Shown one piece after another: positions 42,592 through 50,658 of a DNA stretch of 64,000 bases (positions within the stretch are counted from its first letter, which is position 1; every line of letters begins with the position of its first letter). The position numbers and the translations under genes are program-made. A model generated the notes under the pieces. The model was not told the origin of the DNA. It ran no database searches and worked only from the letters and a program-made list of their open reading frames with translations. This DNA is from an uncultured bacterium (GTDB taxonomy: Bacteria; Atribacterota; Atribacteria; Atribacterales; Caldatribacteriaceae), in assembly GCA_937922705.1 (NCBI GenBank), contig CALAIW010000023.1:1-64000 (forward strand), in the 5' to 3' direction.

Positions 42592-43091
42592 AGATCACGA
42601 ATTTTTCGGAGTATTGGCCGGTACGCTTCGCTCTGGTAATCTGGATACGTATATGGAAAAGGGCGAAAGTCGCCTTTTTCCCATTTGATGGTTGCTTCAG
42701 CGTAGATTCCTTTTCCGATGTATACACGGTGAGAAAAGTTCTTAGTGGTAGCGAGGACAATTTTTCCTCCATCAAAGTAACCGGGGTCAAGGTTAATGCG
42801 ACGGGGGTGGGTTGCATCAGCAGTAGCCTTTTCAAGCTCGTTGGTGAAGAGTTTAACGTCAGGAAGAATCCCAGGATCTACAAGGTTCTGGAACACGAGG
42901 AACACGCGAAGGAGTTTTTCGCCAATTTCACGATAGTAGTCAGTGTACATAAAGGGGATGGGGTCACTCTGCCACTCAATGGCTCCAAAACGCATGGTAA
43001 GGTGAGGAATAACGGAGGCAAGGACTTTTTCATCTTCGTACAGGGTAGCAACAAAGAGCTTTACCGGCTGTGGGGGTCGCACCTCTCCCAT
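42543..43091 (-). CDS. DUF4416 family protein
   Basis: I use ATG 43091 behind AAAGGGTGATCC; a longer frame to 43127 lacks a ribosome site. The 182-residue product has PVKLFVATLYEDEKV, RFGAIEWQSDPIPFMYTDYY and RRINLDPGYFDGGKIVLATTKNFSHRVY, then YAEATIKWEKGDFRPFPYTYPDYQ, all DUF4416 hallmarks. The family occurs in thermophilic and anaerobic bacteria and has no known function. It is transcribed against the exporter and away from the ferritin-like gene, sharing a short gap with a TATAAT on its own strand (43107-43112). Confidence 0.88.
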   Translation of the reverse strand: MGEVRPPQPVKLFVATLYEDEKVLASVIPHLTMRFGAIEWQSDPIPFMYTDYYREIGEKLLRVFLVFQNLVDPGILPDVKLFTNELEKATADATHPRRINLDPGYFDGGKIVLATTKNFSHRVYIGKGIYAEATIKWEKGDFRPFPYTYPDYQSEAYRPILRKIRDLYRVSLKALSSNPKSA

Positions 43092-43128
43092 AAGGATCAC
43101 CCTTTCATTATACCAAGAATGGTACAAT

Positions 43129-43143
43129 AAGGTAGTATACCTT
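43129..43143. promoter_or_regulatory. inverted repeat AAGGTA-GTA-TACCTT in the divergent region
   Basis: A perfect 6-base inverted repeat with a 3-base centre lies between the DUF4416 and ferritin-like genes, directly before the ferritin-like ribosome site and after a TACAAT (43123-43128). Its size fits a small dimeric repressor or an mRNA hairpin hiding the ribosome site. Function is inference. Confidence 0.35.
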
Positions 43144-43159
43144 GGAGGTGATGTTTTCT

Positions 43160-43639
43160 ATGGCTTTTCGCTTCTCCCCAAAGGAAATTCTCACCATGGC
43201 CACGGAGCTTGAGCGGCGAGGTATTGCTTTTTACGAGGAGCTTGAAAAAAAGGCTTCTGATGAAAAAGGGAAAGAGATTTTCCGCTTCCTTGCCGATGAG
43301 GAGCGACGACACCTTGAGATTTTCTTGGGACTTCTTGGAAGCGTTGCCGAAACTTTTCTTGACACTGATGAAGAGGCATCTCGATACCTTGGAGCTATCG
43401 TAGAGAGTGGAGTGCTTCGCAAGGTTCTTGGCGGAGAAGTGCACCCTGGAATTCTTGGGATTTCCGAGGCACTTGATATTGGTATCCAGGTAGAAAAGGA
43501 AAGCATCCTGTTTTACCAGGGTTTTCTTCCTTTTGTGACCCCAGAAAAAAGGAAGTGGGTTGAAGAGGTTGTAGCTGAGGAGAAGCGACACTTCATTCGA
43601 CTGAGTGCTCTCAAAGAGGAAATCGTGGGGGTTGATTGA
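43160..43639 (+). CDS. ferritin-like (rubrerythrin-type) diiron protein
   Basis: ATG 43160 gives 159 residues; ATG 43151 is in frame but close to GGAGGTGAT. The four-helix body has paired iron sites: MATELERRGIAFYEEL, LADEERRHLEIF, VEKESILFYQ and VAEEKRHFIRL, the ExxH patterns of COG1633. It lacks the rubredoxin tail of true rubrerythrin at 1503. It probably handles peroxide or iron. It heads a redox group with the DJ-1/peroxiredoxin fusion and PDO, all within 20 bases of each other. Confidence 0.9.
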   Translation: MAFRFSPKEILTMATELERRGIAFYEELEKKASDEKGKEIFRFLADEERRHLEIFLGLLGSVAETFLDTDEEASRYLGAIVESGVLRKVLGGEVHPGILGISEALDIGIQVEKESILFYQGFLPFVTPEKRKWVEEVVAEEKRHFIRLSALKEEIVGVD

Positions 43640-43642
43640 GGC

Positions 43643-44611
43643 ATGAACCGTCGACGTATTATCATCCTTGTAGAAAACCAGTACCAAGAGCTTGAACTTT
43701 GGTATCCTCTCTTACGTCTTCAAGAGGAGGGTATAGAGGCGAAACTCGTTGGTCCTGGGCTTGAGGAAACGTTTCTTGGTCGTCATGGGTTCCCTGCAAA
43801 GGCGGAAATGGTTACATCTTCGGTATCTCCGCGGGATTTCGACGGGGTTATTATTCCGGGGGGTTTTGCTCCTGATTACCTTCGCCGGCTTCCAGTGGTG
43901 ACCAATCTCGTACGGGAGATGTACCAGCAGGGAAAGCTCATTGGGGCCCTTTCCCGGGGACCTTGGGTGCTCATTTCTGCAGACATTGTTCGGGGAAAAC
44001 GCCTCACCGGGCTTATTTCTCTTCGAGACGATGTGAATAATGCAGGGGGTGAGTTTGTCGATGCCCCGGTAGTTGTTGATGGGAATATTATCACCGCCCG
44101 TGGACCTAACGAGTTGCCTCATTTTATGCAAGAAGTACTTGCTTTTCTCTGGCGAAGCCGGCCCCGGCTTAATGAACCGCATCCCGATGGTTGGCTTGTC
44201 GATAGTACAGGTAACGTTCTCTCTCTTGCGCAAGTCATAAGGGGTAGGCCCTCCCTCCTTCTCTTTTTTGATTCCAGCTTCAGTCCTCGTGGTATCAACC
44301 TCCTTCCAAAGTACCATGAGTGGGCAAAGCGAGTGGAAGAAAAGGGTGGTCTTTTTATCGGGATCAGCACAGACAGTATATTCACCCACCGGGAGTTTCA
44401 GAACCGCTTCCCCCTTCCTTTTCCTCTCTACAGCGATATCTTCCTTGAAGTGACAAAAGCTTTTGGTGTTCTTGGGAATAACGGCCTTGCCGAGTGGGCT
44501 ATTTTCCTTATCGATGCTCATGGAGTGCTCCGTTTTGCTGAGCGTTGCCCTGGGGGAGATATTGAAAATCTCCCCGGTTTTCAGCGAAAGTTTGAAAGTC
44601 TCTTTGGATAG
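43643..44611 (+). CDS. DJ-1/PfpI and peroxiredoxin-like fusion lacking catalytic cysteines
   Basis: This 322-residue protein joins two domains. Residues 5-172 match DJ-1/PfpI (IIILVENQYQELELWYPLLRL, GVIIPGGFAPDYLRR, GEFVDAPVVVDGNIITARGPNEL). The nucleophile elbow normally AICHGP is ALSRGP here, so Cys is Ser104 and His is Arg105. Residues 182-322 match AhpC/TSA peroxiredoxins (SLLLFFDSSFSPRGINLLPKYHEW, FIGISTDSIFTHREF). The peroxidatic Cys position is Gly217. One Cys (AERC) remains in the whole chain. Thiol chemistry by the usual routes is lost in both domains; a binding or chaperone role is likelier. It lies between a ferritin-like protein and PDO. Confidence 0.82.
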   Translation: MNRRRIIILVENQYQELELWYPLLRLQEEGIEAKLVGPGLEETFLGRHGFPAKAEMVTSSVSPRDFDGVIIPGGFAPDYLRRLPVVTNLVREMYQQGKLIGALSRGPWVLISADIVRGKRLTGLISLRDDVNNAGGEFVDAPVVVDGNIITARGPNELPHFMQEVLAFLWRSRPRLNEPHPDGWLVDSTGNVLSLAQVIRGRPSLLLFFDSSFSPRGINLLPKYHEWAKRVEEKGGLFIGISTDSIFTHREFQNRFPLPFPLYSDIFLEVTKAFGVLGNNGLAEWAIFLIDAHGVLRFAERCPGGDIENLPGFQRKFESLFG

Positions 44612-44623
44612 GGGGTTAGAAAG

Positions 44624-45265
44624 ATGTTTCTTGCAGACAAGGATCGTAAAGCCCTTGAGGCGTATCTTCGTGAAAACCTTGTGCATCCCGTGACCATTCG
44701 CTTTTTCACCCAGGAACTTGAGTGTGCCACGTGCAGTGATGTACGAACATTGCTTGAGGAAGTAGTTGCCCTTTCTCCACTTCTTTCTCTTGTGGTACAT
44801 AACTTTCTTTTGGAGAAAGAGGTTGCTGCAGCATTTCGCATTGATAAGATTCCAGCTTTTACTGTAGAAGGGGAGAAGGACTATGGCATCCGCTTTTTTG
44901 GCATTCCTTCAGGATACGAATTTTCAGGGTTTGTAGAAACCCTTGTCTCTGTCTCTCGGAGAACGACGGACTTGTCCGAGAGTACCAAAGCCTTTCTGGG
45001 GACCCTTAACAGGGATGTGCACATTCAGGTTTTTGTAACACCAACTTGCCCCTTCTGTCCACAGGCAGTCGTTTTGGGCCACAAAATGGCCCTTGAGGGA
45101 GAGCGAGTTTCATCAAGCATGGTAGAGATTCTTGAGTTCCCTCATCTTGCTTACCGATACGGGGTACGAGCGGTTCCCAAGATTGTGATTAATGAGACCG
45201 TAGCCATTGAGGGGGCTGTGCCTGAAGCTTTTCTTGTGCAAAAAATTATAGAAGCTTTGGGGTGA
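44624..45265 (+). CDS. pdo: protein disulfide oxidoreductase (two thioredoxin folds)
   Basis: The 213-residue protein has two thioredoxin folds, each with a CxxC: ECATC (Cys34, Cys37) and TPTCPFC (Cys142, Cys145). DKIPAFTVEGEKDYGIRFFGIPSGYEF is the PDO hallmark from hyperthermophilic archaea and bacteria. It forms and swaps disulfides in cytoplasmic proteins and suggests a hot habitat. The first CxxC (CATC) is unusual; archaeal proteins have CQYC-like motifs. It follows the cysteine-poor fusion by 12 bases and may share electrons with the ferritin-like neighbour. Confidence 0.93.
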   Translation: MFLADKDRKALEAYLRENLVHPVTIRFFTQELECATCSDVRTLLEEVVALSPLLSLVVHNFLLEKEVAAAFRIDKIPAFTVEGEKDYGIRFFGIPSGYEFSGFVETLVSVSRRTTDLSESTKAFLGTLNRDVHIQVFVTPTCPFCPQAVVLGHKMALEGERVSSSMVEILEFPHLAYRYGVRAVPKIVINETVAIEGAVPEAFLVQKIIEALG

Positions 45266-45278
45266 GAGGGGGTTGTCT

Positions 45279-46316
45279 ATGAAAGCAGCAGTTATGAAAG
45301 GCTTGCGACACATTGAAATTGAGGAACTTCCCACTCCTATTCCAAAGGAGGGCGAAGTTCTTATCCGGATTCGCAGCGTCGGTGTATGTGGGTCAGATGT
45401 GCACTACTTTGTTGAGGGACGTATTGGGGATTTCGTAGTTGAACCTCCGTTTATCCTGGGCCATGAATGCTCGGGAGAAGTTGTGGAAGTAGGGAAAGGA
45501 GTAACGCACCTTAAGCCTGGGGATCGGGTGACTATGGAGCCTGGTATTCCCTGTGGAAAGTGCGAATTCTGCCGCTTGGGACGGTATAATCTCTGTCCTC
45601 ATGTGGTCTTTTGGGCTACACCTCCGGTGCATGGGACATTCTGTGAGTATGTGGTGCATCCAGCGCATTTCACCTATCCTATTGCTCCAGAGGTGAGTTT
45701 TGAAGAAGCAGCGCTTGTTGAGCCCTTTGCAGTAGGAATGTATGCGGTGCACCGGGCACAGGCAAAGCCCGGTGATGTTGCCCTTGTTCTTGGTAGTGGT
45801 CCGATTGGACTTGTAACCATTCAAGCACTCTCTGTCCGAGGAGTGACCGAGATTATTGCTGTTGATATTGTGGATATGCGCCTTGAAAAGGCGAAAGAAC
45901 TCGGAGCAAAACATGTGATAAATGCCGTTCGTGAAGATGTGCAAGGTGCGGTGCTGTCGATTACTGAAGGGAAGGGAGCCGATGTGGTTTTTGAAACTGC
46001 TGGAAGCGTTCAAACCGCGCAGCTTACTGTGGAGCTTGCCAAAAGAGGTGGCAAGGTTGTGCTCGTTGGTCTTCCATCGGTTACCCATTTTGATTTCGGG
46101 TTCATCAGGATTCTCGATAAGGAACTTGATATCCTAGGGGTTTTCCGATACGCCAATATGTACAAGGGTTGTGTTGACCTTGTAAATAGTGGTCGAGTCA
46201 ATCTCCGTGCTCTTATAACCCATCGCTTTCCCCTAGAGAAGACTCAAGAAGCGCTTCTTTTCGCCCATGAACATAAGGCCGAGTCTATAAAAGTTGTGGT
46301 GAACCTCGAGGGTTGA
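45279..46316 (+). CDS. zinc-dependent polyol (sorbitol/xylitol-type) dehydrogenase
   Basis: ATG 45279 behind GAGAGGGGG gives 345 residues. VGVCGSDVHYF holds the catalytic zinc Cys, ILGHECSGEVVEVG the His and Glu, and PGIPCGKCEFCRLGRYNLCP the four structural-zinc cysteines. The Rossmann domain has VLGSGPIGLVTIQ and the NAD-selecting Asp in VDIVDMRL. The closest relatives are sorbitol, xylitol and related polyol dehydrogenases. The exact sugar alcohol cannot be told. A riboswitch-led operon starts directly after it. Confidence 0.92.
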   Translation: MKAAVMKGLRHIEIEELPTPIPKEGEVLIRIRSVGVCGSDVHYFVEGRIGDFVVEPPFILGHECSGEVVEVGKGVTHLKPGDRVTMEPGIPCGKCEFCRLGRYNLCPHVVFWATPPVHGTFCEYVVHPAHFTYPIAPEVSFEEAALVEPFAVGMYAVHRAQAKPGDVALVLGSGPIGLVTIQALSVRGVTEIIAVDIVDMRLEKAKELGAKHVINAVREDVQGAVLSITEGKGADVVFETAGSVQTAQLTVELAKRGGKVVLVGLPSVTHFDFGFIRILDKELDILGVFRYANMYKGCVDLVNSGRVNLRALITHRFPLEKTQEALLFAHEHKAESIKVVVNLEG

Positions 46317-46449: not shown

Positions 46450-46462
46450 TTGGTTATTTTGG

Positions 46463-46495
46463 GCCATCTGCCGTCCTGGCAGATGGCTTTTTTTT
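46463..46495 (+). terminator. riboswitch-controlled intrinsic terminator
   Basis: A 10-base-pair stem, GCCATCTGCC (46463-46472) with GGCAGATGGC (46478-46487) around GTCCT, is followed by eight T. It lies between the TPP aptamer and the thiW ribosome site (GGAGG 46496-46500). It is the expression platform of the riboswitch. Confidence 0.92.
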
Positions 46496-46508
46496 GGAGG
46501 TGAGAAGG

Positions 46509-47006
46509 ATGCATCGGCTTTGGTATACTGGTCTTTTTGCCGCCCTTGCAGTGGTAGCCTCAAGCTTCCATTTCCCTGTAGGTCCTGTGAAGGTCTTTCC
46601 TTTCCAGCACGCTATCAATGTTCTTGCGGGGATTACTGTTGGCCCATGGTATGGAGCTCTTGCCGCTTTTGTTGCAGGGATCATTCGCATACTCCTTGGC
46701 ACAGGGACAGTGTTTGCGTTTCCTGGAGGAATTCCTGGAGTGATATGTGTTGGGCTTGCATACCGCTTTCTCAAGAGGGATTTTGCAGGATTTTTTGAGC
46801 CTGTGGGGACAGGAGTCTTTGGAGCAATGTTGAGTGCTTACCTTGTTGCTCCTCTTGTGGGGAGGGGAGGGACGCTTCTCTTTTTCCAGACGGCTTTTCT
46901 GGCAAGCAGCATCCCGGGAAGCATTCTTGGTTTTCTTCTCGTGAAAGCTCTGCGACGTGTATTGCATAAGGAACTCTCTCTTGAAGGGAGGTGTTCTAGG
47001 TGCTAG
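46509..47006 (+). CDS. thiW: ThiW, ECF transporter S component for thiazole
   Basis: The ATG at 46509, 8 bases after GGAGG, gives 165 residues with about five membrane helices. ALAVVASSFHFPVGPVKVFPFQHAINVLAGITVGPWYGA and GTGTVFAFPGGIPGV are typical of ThiW. It binds the thiazole precursor and works with the shared ECF energising module, which is not in this window. It is the first gene behind the TPP riboswitch and next to the thiazole kinase. It overlaps cytX by seven bases. Confidence 0.93.
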   Translation: MHRLWYTGLFAALAVVASSFHFPVGPVKVFPFQHAINVLAGITVGPWYGALAAFVAGIIRILLGTGTVFAFPGGIPGVICVGLAYRFLKRDFAGFFEPVGTGVFGAMLSAYLVAPLVGRGGTLLFFQTAFLASSIPGSILGFLLVKALRRVLHKELSLEGRCSRC

Positions 47007-48247
47007 AAACGCTTCGTCCGGTACCTCAAGAGAAGCGCTATCTCTCGGGGTTTGATCTCTTTCTCCTCTGGGTCGGTGCTGCAGTGGCGGTATCGGAAAT
47101 CTGGGCAGGGAGCCTCCTTGCTCCCTTAGGTTTCGTAGGAGGGATGCTTGCTATTCTCGTTGGACACCTGGTGGGAAACACGCCTTTTGCCTTGGGGGGA
47201 GTGCTTGGAAGCGATTTCGGTGTACCAGCCATGGTTTCTGTCCGGTTGGCTTTTGGAAAATGGGGTTCGTATCTTGCGTCGTTTTTAAATATTCTGCAGC
47301 TTGTTGGCTGGACGGCTGTCATGATTATTATCTGCGCCAAGGCAGGGGACGCAATTCTTCAATCCCTCTTTGGCGTTTCAAGTTTCAGGCTCCTTTTGGT
47401 TGTGGCAGGTGTGGTGAGTACCTTCTGGGCGCTTATTGAAACCTCCTGGTGGCGGTGGATGCAGCGGATTGCGGTCCTTGCTCTTTCTGCCCTTTCTGGA
47501 GTTATGACCTTTGTGGCGCTGCGAGGAGTCTCTTTTGGGGAGCTCCTTCGTCTCCGGGGGGATGGTTCTCTCCCCTGGGGGGCTGGTTTTGATCTTGTTG
47601 TGGCGATGCCCATTTCATGGCTTCCTCTTGTGGCGGATTACTCGCGCTTTGCCCGAAGCACAAAGGAGGCTTTCTGGGGGACATGGTGGGGGTACTTTGT
47701 AGCTAGCTCCTGGATGTATACCGTGGGCCTTGTGAGTGCTCTAACAACAGGGCGGGCTGACCCTCTTCCAGCTATGGTGGCCCTTGGTCTTGGCTTTGCG
47801 GCTCTGCTTATCGTTCTTTTTTCCACCTTTACTACGACGTTCCTTGATATCTATTCTGCTTCTGTTTCCTTTCTTAACGTTTACCCAAAGATGAAAGAAA
47901 AGCTTGCTACTGTCCTCTTTGGAGCCTTCGGAACCCTTCTTGCCCTAGTTTTTCCTATGGAGAGGTATGAGAGTTTTCTTTTTCTTATCGGTGCAGTATT
48001 TACCCCCCTTTTTGGTGTGGTTATTGCCGATTACTTTGTGCTCCGTCGCAGAAAGGCCGAAGTTGTAAGCTTTTACGAGCAGTGTCCTCCCCTTGTCTGG
48101 GAAGCGGTTGTGTCCTGGGCTTTTGGTGTGGGAGTGTATGTTCTGTTCCTTAGGACCTTTCCTGCCCTTGGGGCATCTATCCCAAGTTTTCTTCTCTCTG
48201 GGACACTCTACCTTCTTTTAAGGAGGCGAAAACAGTGGACCTTGTAA
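47000..48247 (+). CDS. cytX: CytX, NCS1-type hydroxymethylpyrimidine transporter
   Basis: GTG 47000 gives 415 residues with about 12 membrane helices. The opening SGFDLFLLWVGAAVAVSEIWAGSLLAPLG, LGSDFGVPAMVSVRLAFGKWGSYLASFLNILQLVGWTAVMI and AMPISWLPLVADYSRFARS match CytX. It would import the pyrimidine (HMP) precursor with a cation. Together with ThiW it brings both halves of thiamine, which explains why the cell keeps kinases and ThiE but no thiC or thiG here. Confidence 0.92.
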   Translation: MLETLRPVPQEKRYLSGFDLFLLWVGAAVAVSEIWAGSLLAPLGFVGGMLAILVGHLVGNTPFALGGVLGSDFGVPAMVSVRLAFGKWGSYLASFLNILQLVGWTAVMIIICAKAGDAILQSLFGVSSFRLLLVVAGVVSTFWALIETSWWRWMQRIAVLALSALSGVMTFVALRGVSFGELLRLRGDGSLPWGAGFDLVVAMPISWLPLVADYSRFARSTKEAFWGTWWGYFVASSWMYTVGLVSALTTGRADPLPAMVALGLGFAALLIVLFSTFTTTFLDIYSASVSFLNVYPKMKEKLATVLFGAFGTLLALVFPMERYESFLFLIGAVFTPLFGVVIADYFVLRRRKAEVVSFYEQCPPLVWEAVVSWAFGVGVYVLFLRTFPALGASIPSFLLSGTLYLLLRRRKQWTL

Positions 48248-49041
48248 GGCGGTGTGCAGAAGCGCTCTCTCTTGTGCGAAAGAAAAAACCCCTTGTGCAT
48301 CACATAACGAATATTGTAGCGGCCAATGACAGCGCAAACGCTATGCTTGCCTTGGGGGCGTTGCCGGTTATGGCCTTTGCTCAGGAAGAAGTAGAGGAAA
48401 TGGTCGCTCAGGCTCAGGCACTCGTTGTAAACCTTGGAACTCTTACGGTTAATCTTGTAGAGAGTGCTCTTAAAGCAGGAAAAAGGGCAAATGATCTTGG
48501 TATTCCTGTAGTTCTTGATCCAGTAGGTGCAGGAGCAACCCGTTTCCGAACAGAGAGCGCCCTCTTTTTTCTTCATCGGATTCGTGTTACCATCCTTCGG
48601 GGGAACGTCGGGGAGATCAAGGCTCTCCTTGGACTTTCTTCTCGTATGCGGGGTGTGGAGTCAGAAGAAGACGAGGCCAATCGTGCCTCTATTGCTCGGG
48701 AAGCAGGAGGGACATTCTCCACGGTTTCGGTGGTTACTGGAGCGGTGGATTTTGTAAGCGATGGAACAAGGGTGGTTGCAGTGCACAATGGACACCCTAT
48801 GCTTACCAGGGTCACAGGTACAGGGTGTGTGGCAACTTCTCTTTGTGGTGCCTTTGTGGGGGCAGTGGGTGATCCCTTTCTTGCTTCATTGGCTGCCTTA
48901 GGTTTTCTTGGAGTGTGCGCAGAGCGGGCTATCTCTTTTGCAACGGGTCCGGGGAGTTTCCGAATGCATCTTTTTGATGCTATGTACACACTTCAAGAAG
49001 ACGAGTTTGCCGAAAAACTCTGCCTTGAGGTGTTCCAATGA
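48235..49041 (+). CDS. thiM: hydroxyethylthiazole kinase
   Basis: GTG 48235 overlaps cytX and gives 268 residues. PLVHHITNIVAANDSANAMLALGALPVMA opens the ribokinase-like fold; VVLDPVGAGATRFRTES is a hallmark and MLTRVTGTGCVATSLCGAF holds the anion hole with the catalytic Cys. It phosphorylates salvaged thiazole alcohol for ThiE. The stop overlaps thiE by four bases. Confidence 0.95.
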   Translation: MDLVRRCAEALSLVRKKKPLVHHITNIVAANDSANAMLALGALPVMAFAQEEVEEMVAQAQALVVNLGTLTVNLVESALKAGKRANDLGIPVVLDPVGAGATRFRTESALFFLHRIRVTILRGNVGEIKALLGLSSRMRGVESEEDEANRASIAREAGGTFSTVSVVTGAVDFVSDGTRVVAVHNGHPMLTRVTGTGCVATSLCGAFVGAVGDPFLASLAALGFLGVCAERAISFATGPGSFRMHLFDAMYTLQEDEFAEKLCLEVFQ

Positions 49042-49682
49042 GAAAGGATTTCTCCTTGTATGTGATTACCGATCGGAACGTTCAGAAAAAAACAAACCTT
49101 GAGGTTGTAGAAGAAGCTATTGCTGGTGGGGCCTCCGTCATTCAGCTTCGGGAAAAGACCCTTTCCACACGTGAATTCTTTGAGGAGGCGCTTCTTCTCA
49201 GAAGGTACACGAAGCGCTATGGGGTGCTTTTTATCGTGAATGACCGGATAGACATAGCGCTTGCTAGTGGAGCCGATGGAGTGCACCTGGGTCCTGAGGA
49301 CCTTCCTCTTTCCTATGCGCGGCGTATTGCTCCTCATCTTGTCATCGGGTACTCTTGTAGTACCAAAGAGGAAGCGCAAGAAGCGGAACGTCTTGGTGCC
49401 GATTACCTTGGGGTTGGGGCAGTCTTTCCTACGATGACAAAGAGGGACGCGGGGCCTCCGATTGGTCTTGAACGCCTTCGGGAAATCGTGTCGTCTGTGA
49501 CGATTCCGGTTGTAGCTATTGGAGGTATTACTCCTGAGAATGTCGAGGCAGTGCTCGCTACAGGTGTTGCTGGGGTGGCGGTAGTATCGGCTATCGTAGG
49601 AGCGCCTTCGGTGCGAGGAGCAACCGCTCTTTTTCGAGAAAAGATTGACGCGTTTTTGAGGAGAAGCCGTGGAACTTCGTGA
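49038..49682 (+). CDS. thiE: thiamine phosphate synthase
   Basis: The 214-residue TIM barrel has SLYVITDR, GGASVIQLREKTLSTREF, FIVNDRIDIALASGADGVHLGPEDLP, IGYSCSTKEEAQEAERLGADYLGVGAVFPT and VVAIGGITPENV, all ThiE hallmarks. It couples the pyrimidine diphosphate (from ThiD) to thiazole phosphate (from ThiM). It overlaps thiL by 14 bases. Confidence 0.96.
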   Translation: MRKDFSLYVITDRNVQKKTNLEVVEEAIAGGASVIQLREKTLSTREFFEEALLLRRYTKRYGVLFIVNDRIDIALASGADGVHLGPEDLPLSYARRIAPHLVIGYSCSTKEEAQEAERLGADYLGVGAVFPTMTKRDAGPPIGLERLREIVSSVTIPVVAIGGITPENVEAVLATGVAGVAVVSAIVGAPSVRGATALFREKIDAFLRRSRGTS

Positions 49683-50658
49683 TTTTGGGGAGTTTGGTCT
49701 CATCGCCCATATTCGAAAGCTTTTCCCCGAGATTGGGGATGACTGTGCCGTTCTGCCAGGACGTAGCGGTTTTTTCCTCCTTGCCACCGTGGATAGCCAG
49801 GTTGAGGGAACACATTTTCGACTTTCCCTTATTCCCCCCTTCTCCCTTGGTAGGCGGCTTCTTGTTGCCAACTTAAGTGACATTGCTGCGATGGGTGGTA
49901 TCCCAAGATATGCACTCACTTCCTTTGTCCTTCGGGAGGACATTCCTTTTTCCTGGTTTGAGGAATTCCTTTTAGGATTGCAGGAAGAAGCTCTTCGCTA
50001 TGGGGTTACAGTCGTTGGGGGAAATCTTGCTCGGACAGCTGGTCCGGTGACTCTTGACCTTGTCCTCCTTGGAGAAGTTGAAGATGACCGCCCTCTTCTC
50101 CTTCGTTCTAATGCTCGTCCGGGAGATTGTATTTTCGTCACAGGTTATCTGGGAGAGGCAAAAGCAGGTTTTCTCCTCGTAGAACAGGGCGAGGAGCGTT
50201 CTGAATACCAACCGCTTCGAGAGCGATTTTTCACCGCTTCACCACGTCTTAGTGTTGGTAGGTTTTTAGGGTCACTTGGAGAACGAATCGCCCTTATAGA
50301 TGTTTCTGATGGTCTTTTGCAGGATCTTGGGCATATTCTTGAGGAAAGTAAAGTGGGAGCAGTACTTGAAAAAGAGGCTCTTCCTGTATCTTCACTCCTT
50401 GCTCAATTCTGTAAGGAAAAGCACTATGACCCCTTGGACTTTGTGTTCCGAGGGGGAGAGGATTTTGAGCTCCTTTTTACCGCGCCGCCACACCTTGAGG
50501 AGATTATTCTTCGGAGTATTCCTGGTCGTTTGGGGATTCCAGTTTCAAGGATAGGGAACATCATCCCTGAGGAAGGCAAAATCTTCATAGAAGAGGACGG
50601 GAAACTCCTTCCTCTTAGTACCCTTGGTTTTGATCACTTTGTGCGAAAGGAGAGGTAG
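49669..50658 (+). CDS. thiL: thiamine monophosphate kinase
   Basis: GTG 49669 gives 329 residues. IGDDCAVLPG, LATVDSQVEGTHFR, RRLLVANLSDIAAMGG and VTVVGGNLARTAGPVTLDLVLLG are typical, as are LIDVSDGLLQDLGHIL and FRGGEDFELLF, which hold the metal-binding Asp residues. It makes TPP from thiamine phosphate, the last step and the riboswitch ligand. Its presence means the product of ThiE is used without dephosphorylation. Confidence 0.96.
   Translation: MELRDFGEFGLIAHIRKLFPEIGDDCAVLPGRSGFFLLATVDSQVEGTHFRLSLIPPFSLGRRLLVANLSDIAAMGGIPRYALTSFVLREDIPFSWFEEFLLGLQEEALRYGVTVVGGNLARTAGPVTLDLVLLGEVEDDRPLLLRSNARPGDCIFVTGYLGEAKAGFLLVEQGEERSEYQPLRERFFTASPRLSVGRFLGSLGERIALIDVSDGLLQDLGHILEESKVGAVLEKEALPVSSLLAQFCKEKHYDPLDFVFRGGEDFELLFTAPPHLEEIILRSIPGRLGIPVSRIGNIIPEEGKIFIEEDGKLLPLSTLGFDHFVRKER

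Follow-up and report, generated by a model that had tools for sequence, protein, structure and literature searches.

Proteins of the PfpI/YhbO type, represented by PH1704, E. coli YhbO and P. aeruginosa PfpI, belong to the DJ-1 family, whose members are debated as enzymes, redox sensors or chaperones. The activity of P. aeruginosa PfpI is abolished by the substitutions C112A, H113A and H113E, and a further residue, Asp86', is supplied by the adjacent protomer (PMC11987610). Cysteine-free DJ-1-type proteins with cysteine-independent roles are already known. The C-terminal domain of large-subunit catalases is an Hsp31-derived chaperone fused to a redox enzyme and is without Cys in native Neurospora CAT-3 (PMC10135305), while Arabidopsis AtDJ1C lacks Cys in both of its domains and yet is essential (PMC3160306). 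Among peroxiredoxins, Bcp1, Bcp3 and Bcp4 of Sulfolobus receive electrons from a protein disulfide oxidoreductase, or PDO (PMC7465337). In a literature search, which excluded most subscription papers, neither a DJ-1–peroxiredoxin fusion nor such a peroxiredoxin pseudoenzyme was found described, and the literature on Atribacteria rubrerythrin and on the Anabaena DJ-1/ferritin protein likewise contained no account of one. A fusion of this kind with both active sites dead, as described below, appears to be undescribed.

The window, by which the whole analysed stretch of 64,000 nucleotides is meant, contains such a fusion gene, with the following main parts:

43643..44611, + strand: PfpI/DJ-1–peroxiredoxin fusion of 322 amino acids, an uninterrupted ORF from ATG to TAG
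43652..44140, + strand: PfpI/DJ-1 half, residues 4-166 (PF01965, E 1.6e-44; TIGR01382; Foldseek 1g2i)
44177..44536, + strand: peroxiredoxin (AhpC/TSA) half, residues 179-298 (PF00578, E 2.6e-17)

Both Pfam matches are well above the curated cut-offs, and the PfpI half also passes the TIGR01382 PfpI subfamily model (151.7 bits, cut-off 139). The fusion does not reach the equivalog deglyc_PfpI (130 against 330 bits) and passes none of the peroxiredoxin equivalog models. The PF00578 match was present in 17/17 fusion orthologues tested. An AlphaFold2 model, for which the input alignment held 17 fusions and 18 single-domain relatives, gave a mean pLDDT of 95.1 and a pTM of 0.90, which suggests that the two halves are held in a fixed arrangement. 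With Foldseek the PfpI half was found to have the fold of PH1704 (1g2i; TM (target) 0.96, 1.0 A rmsd, 165 columns), with 3fse, the PfpI-ferritin protein of Anabaena, not far behind. Modelled alone (pLDDT 96.0), the other half has a peroxiredoxin fold; its best PDB match is Sulfolobus Bcp4 (3hjp, TM 0.85), followed closely by AhpE.

In comparison with the PfpI/YhbO type, to which it has 37% identity, the fusion conserves the GG-x-AP-D and DD motifs but has Ser-Arg in place of Cys-His, Leu at the PH1704 Tyr120 position and an attached peroxiredoxin fold. The closest PDB PfpI domain by sequence, at 38%, is that of Anabaena Ava_4496 (3fse). Both proteins are fusions; however, the Anabaena protein retains Cys-His and its partner domain is ferritin-like rather than a peroxiredoxin, whereas here a separate ferritin-like gene sits just upstream. 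By structure and by sequence, the C-terminal half is best matched by archaeal Bcp-type peroxiredoxins (Bcp4 and the Aeropyrum protein 2cx3) and M. tuberculosis AhpE, from which it differs by the loss of the peroxidatic Cys, the motif Pro and the conserved Arg. The catalase C-terminal domain is, like the fusion, a DJ-1-superfamily domain joined to a redox enzyme fold, Cys-free in CAT-3 and with a non-catalytic role, but its partner is an active catalase and its chaperone activity has been measured. AtDJ1C is also of the PfpI/YhbO clade and without Cys, but it is a tandem DJ-1 protein of plastids with no peroxiredoxin half.

The positions in the PfpI half that bear on catalysis are:

43946..43963, + strand: nucleophile elbow ALSRGP, residues 102-107, from the alignment with PH1704
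43952..43954, + strand: codon of Ser104 (TCC), at the PfpI Cys position
43955..43957, + strand: codon of Arg105 (CGG), at the PfpI His position
43874..43876, + strand: Asp78, at the position of the acid given by the neighbouring protomer in PfpI

The PH1704 stretch ASICHGP aligns with GALSRGP, so that Cys100-His101 corresponds to Ser104-Arg105. The nucleophilic Cys of DJ-1/PfpI enzymes, be they glyoxalases, deglycases or proteases, is therefore replaced by Ser104, and the His that follows it in the PfpI type by Arg105. This Arg was seen throughout the Caldatribacterium family (f1 among the four families f1 to f4 of the order Atribacterales), with His at the same position in all remaining fusions. 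On our reading of the alignment, Asp78 would be the equivalent of Asp86' of P. aeruginosa PfpI; it is retained in f1 to f3 and is Ala in f4. The position of PH1704 Glu12, which is Glu22 in P. aeruginosa PfpI, is taken by Gln15, followed by Glu16. This change was considered as a third ancestral loss and rejected, since Gln also occupies the position in 11/23 Cys-bearing single-domain relatives. The aromatic residue at the Tyr120 position is Phe or Tyr in 21/23 single-domain relatives and is gone from all fusions; its absence even from the Cys-bearing fusions indicates that remodelling of the pocket accompanied the fusion or came shortly after it. Position 124 of the fusions varies freely (Leu, Asn, Ser, Val, Ala), and Glu11, Tyr14, Gln15, Glu16, Trp20, Arg25, Glu28, Arg81 and Asp130 are invariant among them.

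In the peroxiredoxin half, three positions were located:

44291..44293, + strand: Gly217, at the peroxidatic Cys position (FSPRG against FSPVC in 2cx3)
44495..44497, + strand: Trp285, at the position of the conserved active-site Arg (LAEWAIFLID against VAKRAVFIV in 2cx3)
44546..44548, + strand: Cys302, the sole Cys of the protein, within ERCPGGDIENLPGF

In the alignment with 2cx3, FFPAAFSPVCTKEL is matched with FFDSSFSPRGINLL, which places the peroxidatic Cys at Gly217. The PxxxT/SxxC motif reads DSSFSPRG, with Pro replaced by Asp210, Ser214 retained and Cys replaced by Gly217. No Cys was found at the peroxidatic position in any of the orthologues (0/23; Gly, Ala, Ser, Ile or Phe instead). The position of Trp285 holds Trp in 22/23 and Thr in one (L021). 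Cys302 is Cys in 21/23 and Trp in both genomes of genus g9.

The first-pass annotation of this DNA had recognised the two domains, had read Ser104-Arg105 at the elbow and Gly217 at the peroxidatic site, and had counted a single Cys; all of this is borne out by the Pfam DJ-1_PfpI and AhpC-TSA matches, the confident models and the alignments with PH1704 and 2cx3. To these can be added the replacements of Pro by Asp210 and Arg by Trp285, two losses that it did not list. Its description as cysteine-free holds for both catalytic cysteines, but not for the protein as a whole, owing to the conserved Cys302. As PfpI activity needs both Cys and His, judging from the dead P. aeruginosa mutants, classical thiol catalysis at the two sites has very probably been lost from the protein of the window.

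Orthologues were searched for in the genome of the window and in 60 other genomes. Full-length fusions were found in 22 of 24 further genomes of the Atribacterales, anaerobes that have been little studied, making 23 with the window, all open and of the same architecture; the existence of these 22 excludes chance or a frame error as the origin of the gene. The other two genomes of the order hold an internally deleted copy (G019) and none (G010, 75% complete). In the other families of the phylum that were searched, only single-domain PfpI or nothing was found. Two peptide patterns of the PfpI half, which would miss any fusion whose PfpI half has diverged, were scanned against 84,980 named species genomes and picked up fusions in Atribacteria only. 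The fusions of two named Caldatribacterium species are 86-87% identical to that of the window, which therefore belongs in that genus or next to it. Outside Atribacterales the same PfpI domain stands alone, with Cys-His in every row examined.

A tree of the PfpI half was built with the elbow columns removed from 23 fusions and 23 single-domain relatives. It placed all fusions in a single clade (support 100/99), and all 23 single-domain relatives have Cys-His. Within the fusion clade the elbow is His-His in f4, Gly-His in f2, Gly-His in genus g6 of f3, Cys-His in genera g8 and g9 of f3 and Ser-Arg in f1. Eight genomes of g8 and g9, in a sister family, retain Cys-His, and as these also have the Asp, their PfpI half could yet be enzymatically active. 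The fewest elbow changes within the clade number four, and a Cys-bearing ancestral elbow is the shortest reading, by one step on our own count; on this reconstruction there would have been about four losses of the elbow Cys, one to Ser, two to Gly and one to His. The peroxidatic Cys, missing from 23/23, was lost at or before the Atribacterales ancestor, and the two cysteine losses, reconstructed in this way, are of different age. It had been asked whether the substitutions are fixed in relatives. This is so for the missing peroxidatic Cys, but Ser-Arg is fixed only in f1 (11/11), where the codon of Ser104 varies among the genomes (TCC, TCT, TCA) and the residue is constant. Relatives with Cys, which the first-pass annotation had named as evidence against its own reading, were found for the elbow, in g8 and g9, and not for the peroxidatic site. 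The two losses, which had been presented together, are both real but are separate events. A link of PDO to the loss of the elbow Cys was considered and is not strict, as f1 and f4 have PDO and lack the Cys, but f2 and g6 lack both. Thermophily as a driver was also set aside, as in proteins encoded around the locus the IVYWREL content of Cys-less genomes was only a little higher, and the measure was too noisy to rely on.

Several active-site residues are gone from both halves, as might be expected of a gene in decay, and the one deleted copy (G019, L128:4673-6223) could be taken in the same sense. In that copy the fusion and the adjacent dehydrogenase gene are internally deleted by about 61 and 97 codons, respectively, on one short MAG contig; the pairing of the two deletions suggests that this is probably an assembly collapse and not decay. 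Nei-Gojobori dN/dS was calculated for pairs with finite dS, with dS-saturated pairs excluded and the pairs being non-independent. In the family without the elbow Cys it was 0.017-0.069 for the PfpI half and 0.056-0.111 for the peroxiredoxin half; in g8 and g9, which have this Cys, the corresponding values were 0.030-0.083 and 0.074-0.178. The PfpI half is thus under about the same constraint without the Cys as with it. With dN/dS far below 1 in both halves, 23 open frames and a conserved gene cluster, decay is so improbable that it can be set aside. The first-pass suggestion that the gene has not decayed therefore stands, as the dN/dS values contradict a frame free of selection, which it had named as a possible refutation. 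A role outside catalysis explains the gene better than decay does, and the binding or chaperone function proposed there would be a candidate.

The fusion gene lies in a compact cluster with the following further features:

43121..43130, + strand: TGGTACAATA, a tentative -10-like element upstream of the ferritin-like gene; unchanged across the five genomes of the genus that were aligned, and absent from the hits of the consensus scan
43142..43639, + strand: ferritin-like (rubrerythrin-family) diiron protein with no rubredoxin domain (PF02915, E 1.1e-13)
44624..45265, + strand: PDO with motifs CATC and CPFC (TIGR02187, 256 bits, cut-off 185)
45273..46316, + strand: zinc-dependent medium-chain dehydrogenase (PF08240, PF00107)
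46461..46489, + strand: predicted terminator-like hairpin 3' of the dehydrogenase gene, a 13-pair stem followed by a T run and the strongest match of the scan

The gaps between these genes are 3 bases (ferritin-like/fusion), 12 bases (fusion/PDO) and 7 bases (PDO/dehydrogenase), and the ferritin-like protein and PDO that had been named as neighbours are indeed present. In the ferritin-like gene the start that relatives share is probably a later ATG, at 43160. Its product has the diiron ligand pattern with two ExxH motifs, the putative ligands E24, E54, H57, E88/E118/E120, E147 and H150 being invariant in 24 rows, and its nearest solved structure is TM1526 (1vjx). A PDB sequence search with this protein returned 1vjx and 2fzf only, with no match to the ferritin-like domain of 3fse. 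Profile and motifs together point to the two thioredoxin folds and two CxxC motifs of a PDO, both motifs being invariant in 12 rows; no other PDO in the genome of the window passes the cut-off. In the dehydrogenase the zinc ligands are likewise constant, with Cys39, His64, Glu65 and Cys94/97/100/108 invariant in 20 rows. The catalytic residues of the neighbours are thus retained, and only the fusion is catalytically stripped.

The order ferritin-like gene, fusion, (PDO), zinc dehydrogenase is kept in all four families wherever the contigs reach. A PDO over the cut-off occurs once per f1 and f4 genome, adjoining the fusion (the copy of G011 is cut by a contig edge), and is absent from f2 and f3; G010 has neither PDO nor fusion. 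In one Cys-bearing genome (G017, L126:6062-7240) a transposase, IS4-like by eye, lies between the fusion and the dehydrogenase gene, both of which are intact. A DUF4416 gene on the - strand and the ferritin-like gene on the + strand diverge from a short promoter region at 43091-43160 of the window, with -10-like elements on both strands that are conserved in five genomes of the genus. Downstream of the cluster, at 46494-50658, lies an apparent thiamine set (ThiW-like, NCS1 transporter-like, ThiM, ThiE and ThiL, named from their sequences), the order of which is conserved in several relatives.

Our tentative preference is that the fold of the pseudoenzyme has been retained as an oligomeric scaffold or adaptor for the neighbouring proteins. 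A Cys-bearing PfpI would have been fused, before the Atribacterales radiation, to a peroxiredoxin whose peroxidatic Cys had been lost or was soon lost. The PfpI nucleophile would then have ceased to be needed and would have disappeared on several occasions, one of which gave the Caldatribacterium family its Ser-Arg. The PfpI half could serve as a rigid oligomeric core, its relatives forming trimers and hexamers, with the peroxiredoxin half, from a PDO-reduced type, docking the ferritin-like protein, PDO where present and the zinc dehydrogenase. Bcp4 works with PDO, and PDO is the next gene after the fusion here; from this position and the electron transfer in Sulfolobus, the Bcp4-like half looks like an old PDO substrate that is now a docking module. 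In the family of the window, a salt bridge between Arg105 and Asp78 of the adjacent subunit may have taken the place of the catalytic His, which would convert the old active site into an assembly contact. The ferritin-like gene always precedes the fusion, and in 3fse the closest PDB PfpI domain is itself joined to a ferritin-like domain. PDO cannot be a necessary partner, as it is missing in f2 and f3. It counts against a scaffold that the conserved order may reflect co-expression alone, and that the ferritin-like protein did not match the 3fse ferritin-like domain in the PDB sequence search. Ferritin-like or peroxiredoxin-half-like genes were looked for at 73 single-domain PfpI loci and seen only at L056, with one weak peroxiredoxin match (L108), which indicates that PfpI, ferritin and peroxiredoxin are not a general partnership. 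At the former locus (L056:8001-12489), which is deltaproteobacterial, two ferritin-like genes lie near a single-domain PfpI gene, another instance of PfpI and ferritin occurring together.

Other functions were weighed against the scaffold. A holdase-type chaperone, in which the joined folds would hold on to proteins that unfold in heat or oxidative stress, with no thiol chemistry, has precedents in the Hsp31-derived catalase domain, a chaperone on a redox enzyme that is Cys-free in CAT-3 (PMC10135305), and in the essential AtDJ1C (PMC3160306). Such a general chaperone would need no fixed partners, however, and the fusion gene has the same neighbours throughout; the model also shows nothing like the disordered loop at the C-terminus to which the catalase domain owes its activity, so that we regard this role as unlikely. 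The invariant residues of the PfpI half listed above, and the constancy of the dehydrogenase as a neighbour, would also suit a non-catalytic sensor, its pocket, which apart from the nucleophile is conserved, binding an aldehyde, sugar phosphate or peroxide product and regulating the dehydrogenase or the ferritin-like protein. Loss of the Tyr120-position aromatic, free variation at position 124 and four elbow states would be odd for a conserved ligand site, and a sensor is accordingly considered improbable.

Residual or new catalysis would involve Ser104 as a nucleophile, or mixed disulfides of Cys302 with PDO or substrates. Ser104 is invariant in the 11 f1 genomes despite its varying codon, and PDO adjoins the fusion in f1 and f4, but it is the near invariance of Cys302 (21/23) that mainly keeps this explanation alive. 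Against it, the general base His has become Arg, other families have Gly or His at position 104, and C112A and H113A PfpI are dead (PMC11987610). Cys302 in turn is kept in families without PDO, is Trp in g9 and lies after the last strand rather than at the peroxidatic site. Catalysis of either kind is thus quite improbable. A wider form of the preferred scaffold reading is that the doubly inactive fusion is the structural hub of an Atribacterales redox complex of ferritin-like protein, PDO and dehydrogenase, with the nucleophile losses marking a shift from enzyme to scaffold; this we hold to be doubtful. If true, two genera would preserve the intermediate, with an intact PfpI active site and a dead peroxiredoxin half.

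Repeated loss of Cys under strong selection, with Cys-bearing sisters, makes the fusions a natural series for roles of the DJ-1 and peroxiredoxin folds that are free of thiols. It should also be noted that annotation as 'deglycase/protease' or 'peroxiredoxin' is likely to be wrong for most of them.

The fusion is not the sole DJ-1 or peroxiredoxin protein of the cell, as two others were seen in the same genome. A 227-aa peroxiredoxin (G000:C7:64000-65700, L170) with an intact FTPVC motif follows a Fur-family-like regulator gene, named from its sequence, and is probably the true peroxide defence of the cell. A tandem DJ-1 protein (G000:C11:13500-16200, L168, ORF 582-1907, - strand) has Gly-Asp in domain 1 (GSIGDGALV) and Cys-His in domain 2 (AGICHAPIA), and this half-dead tandem was also seen in the relatives G002 and G014.
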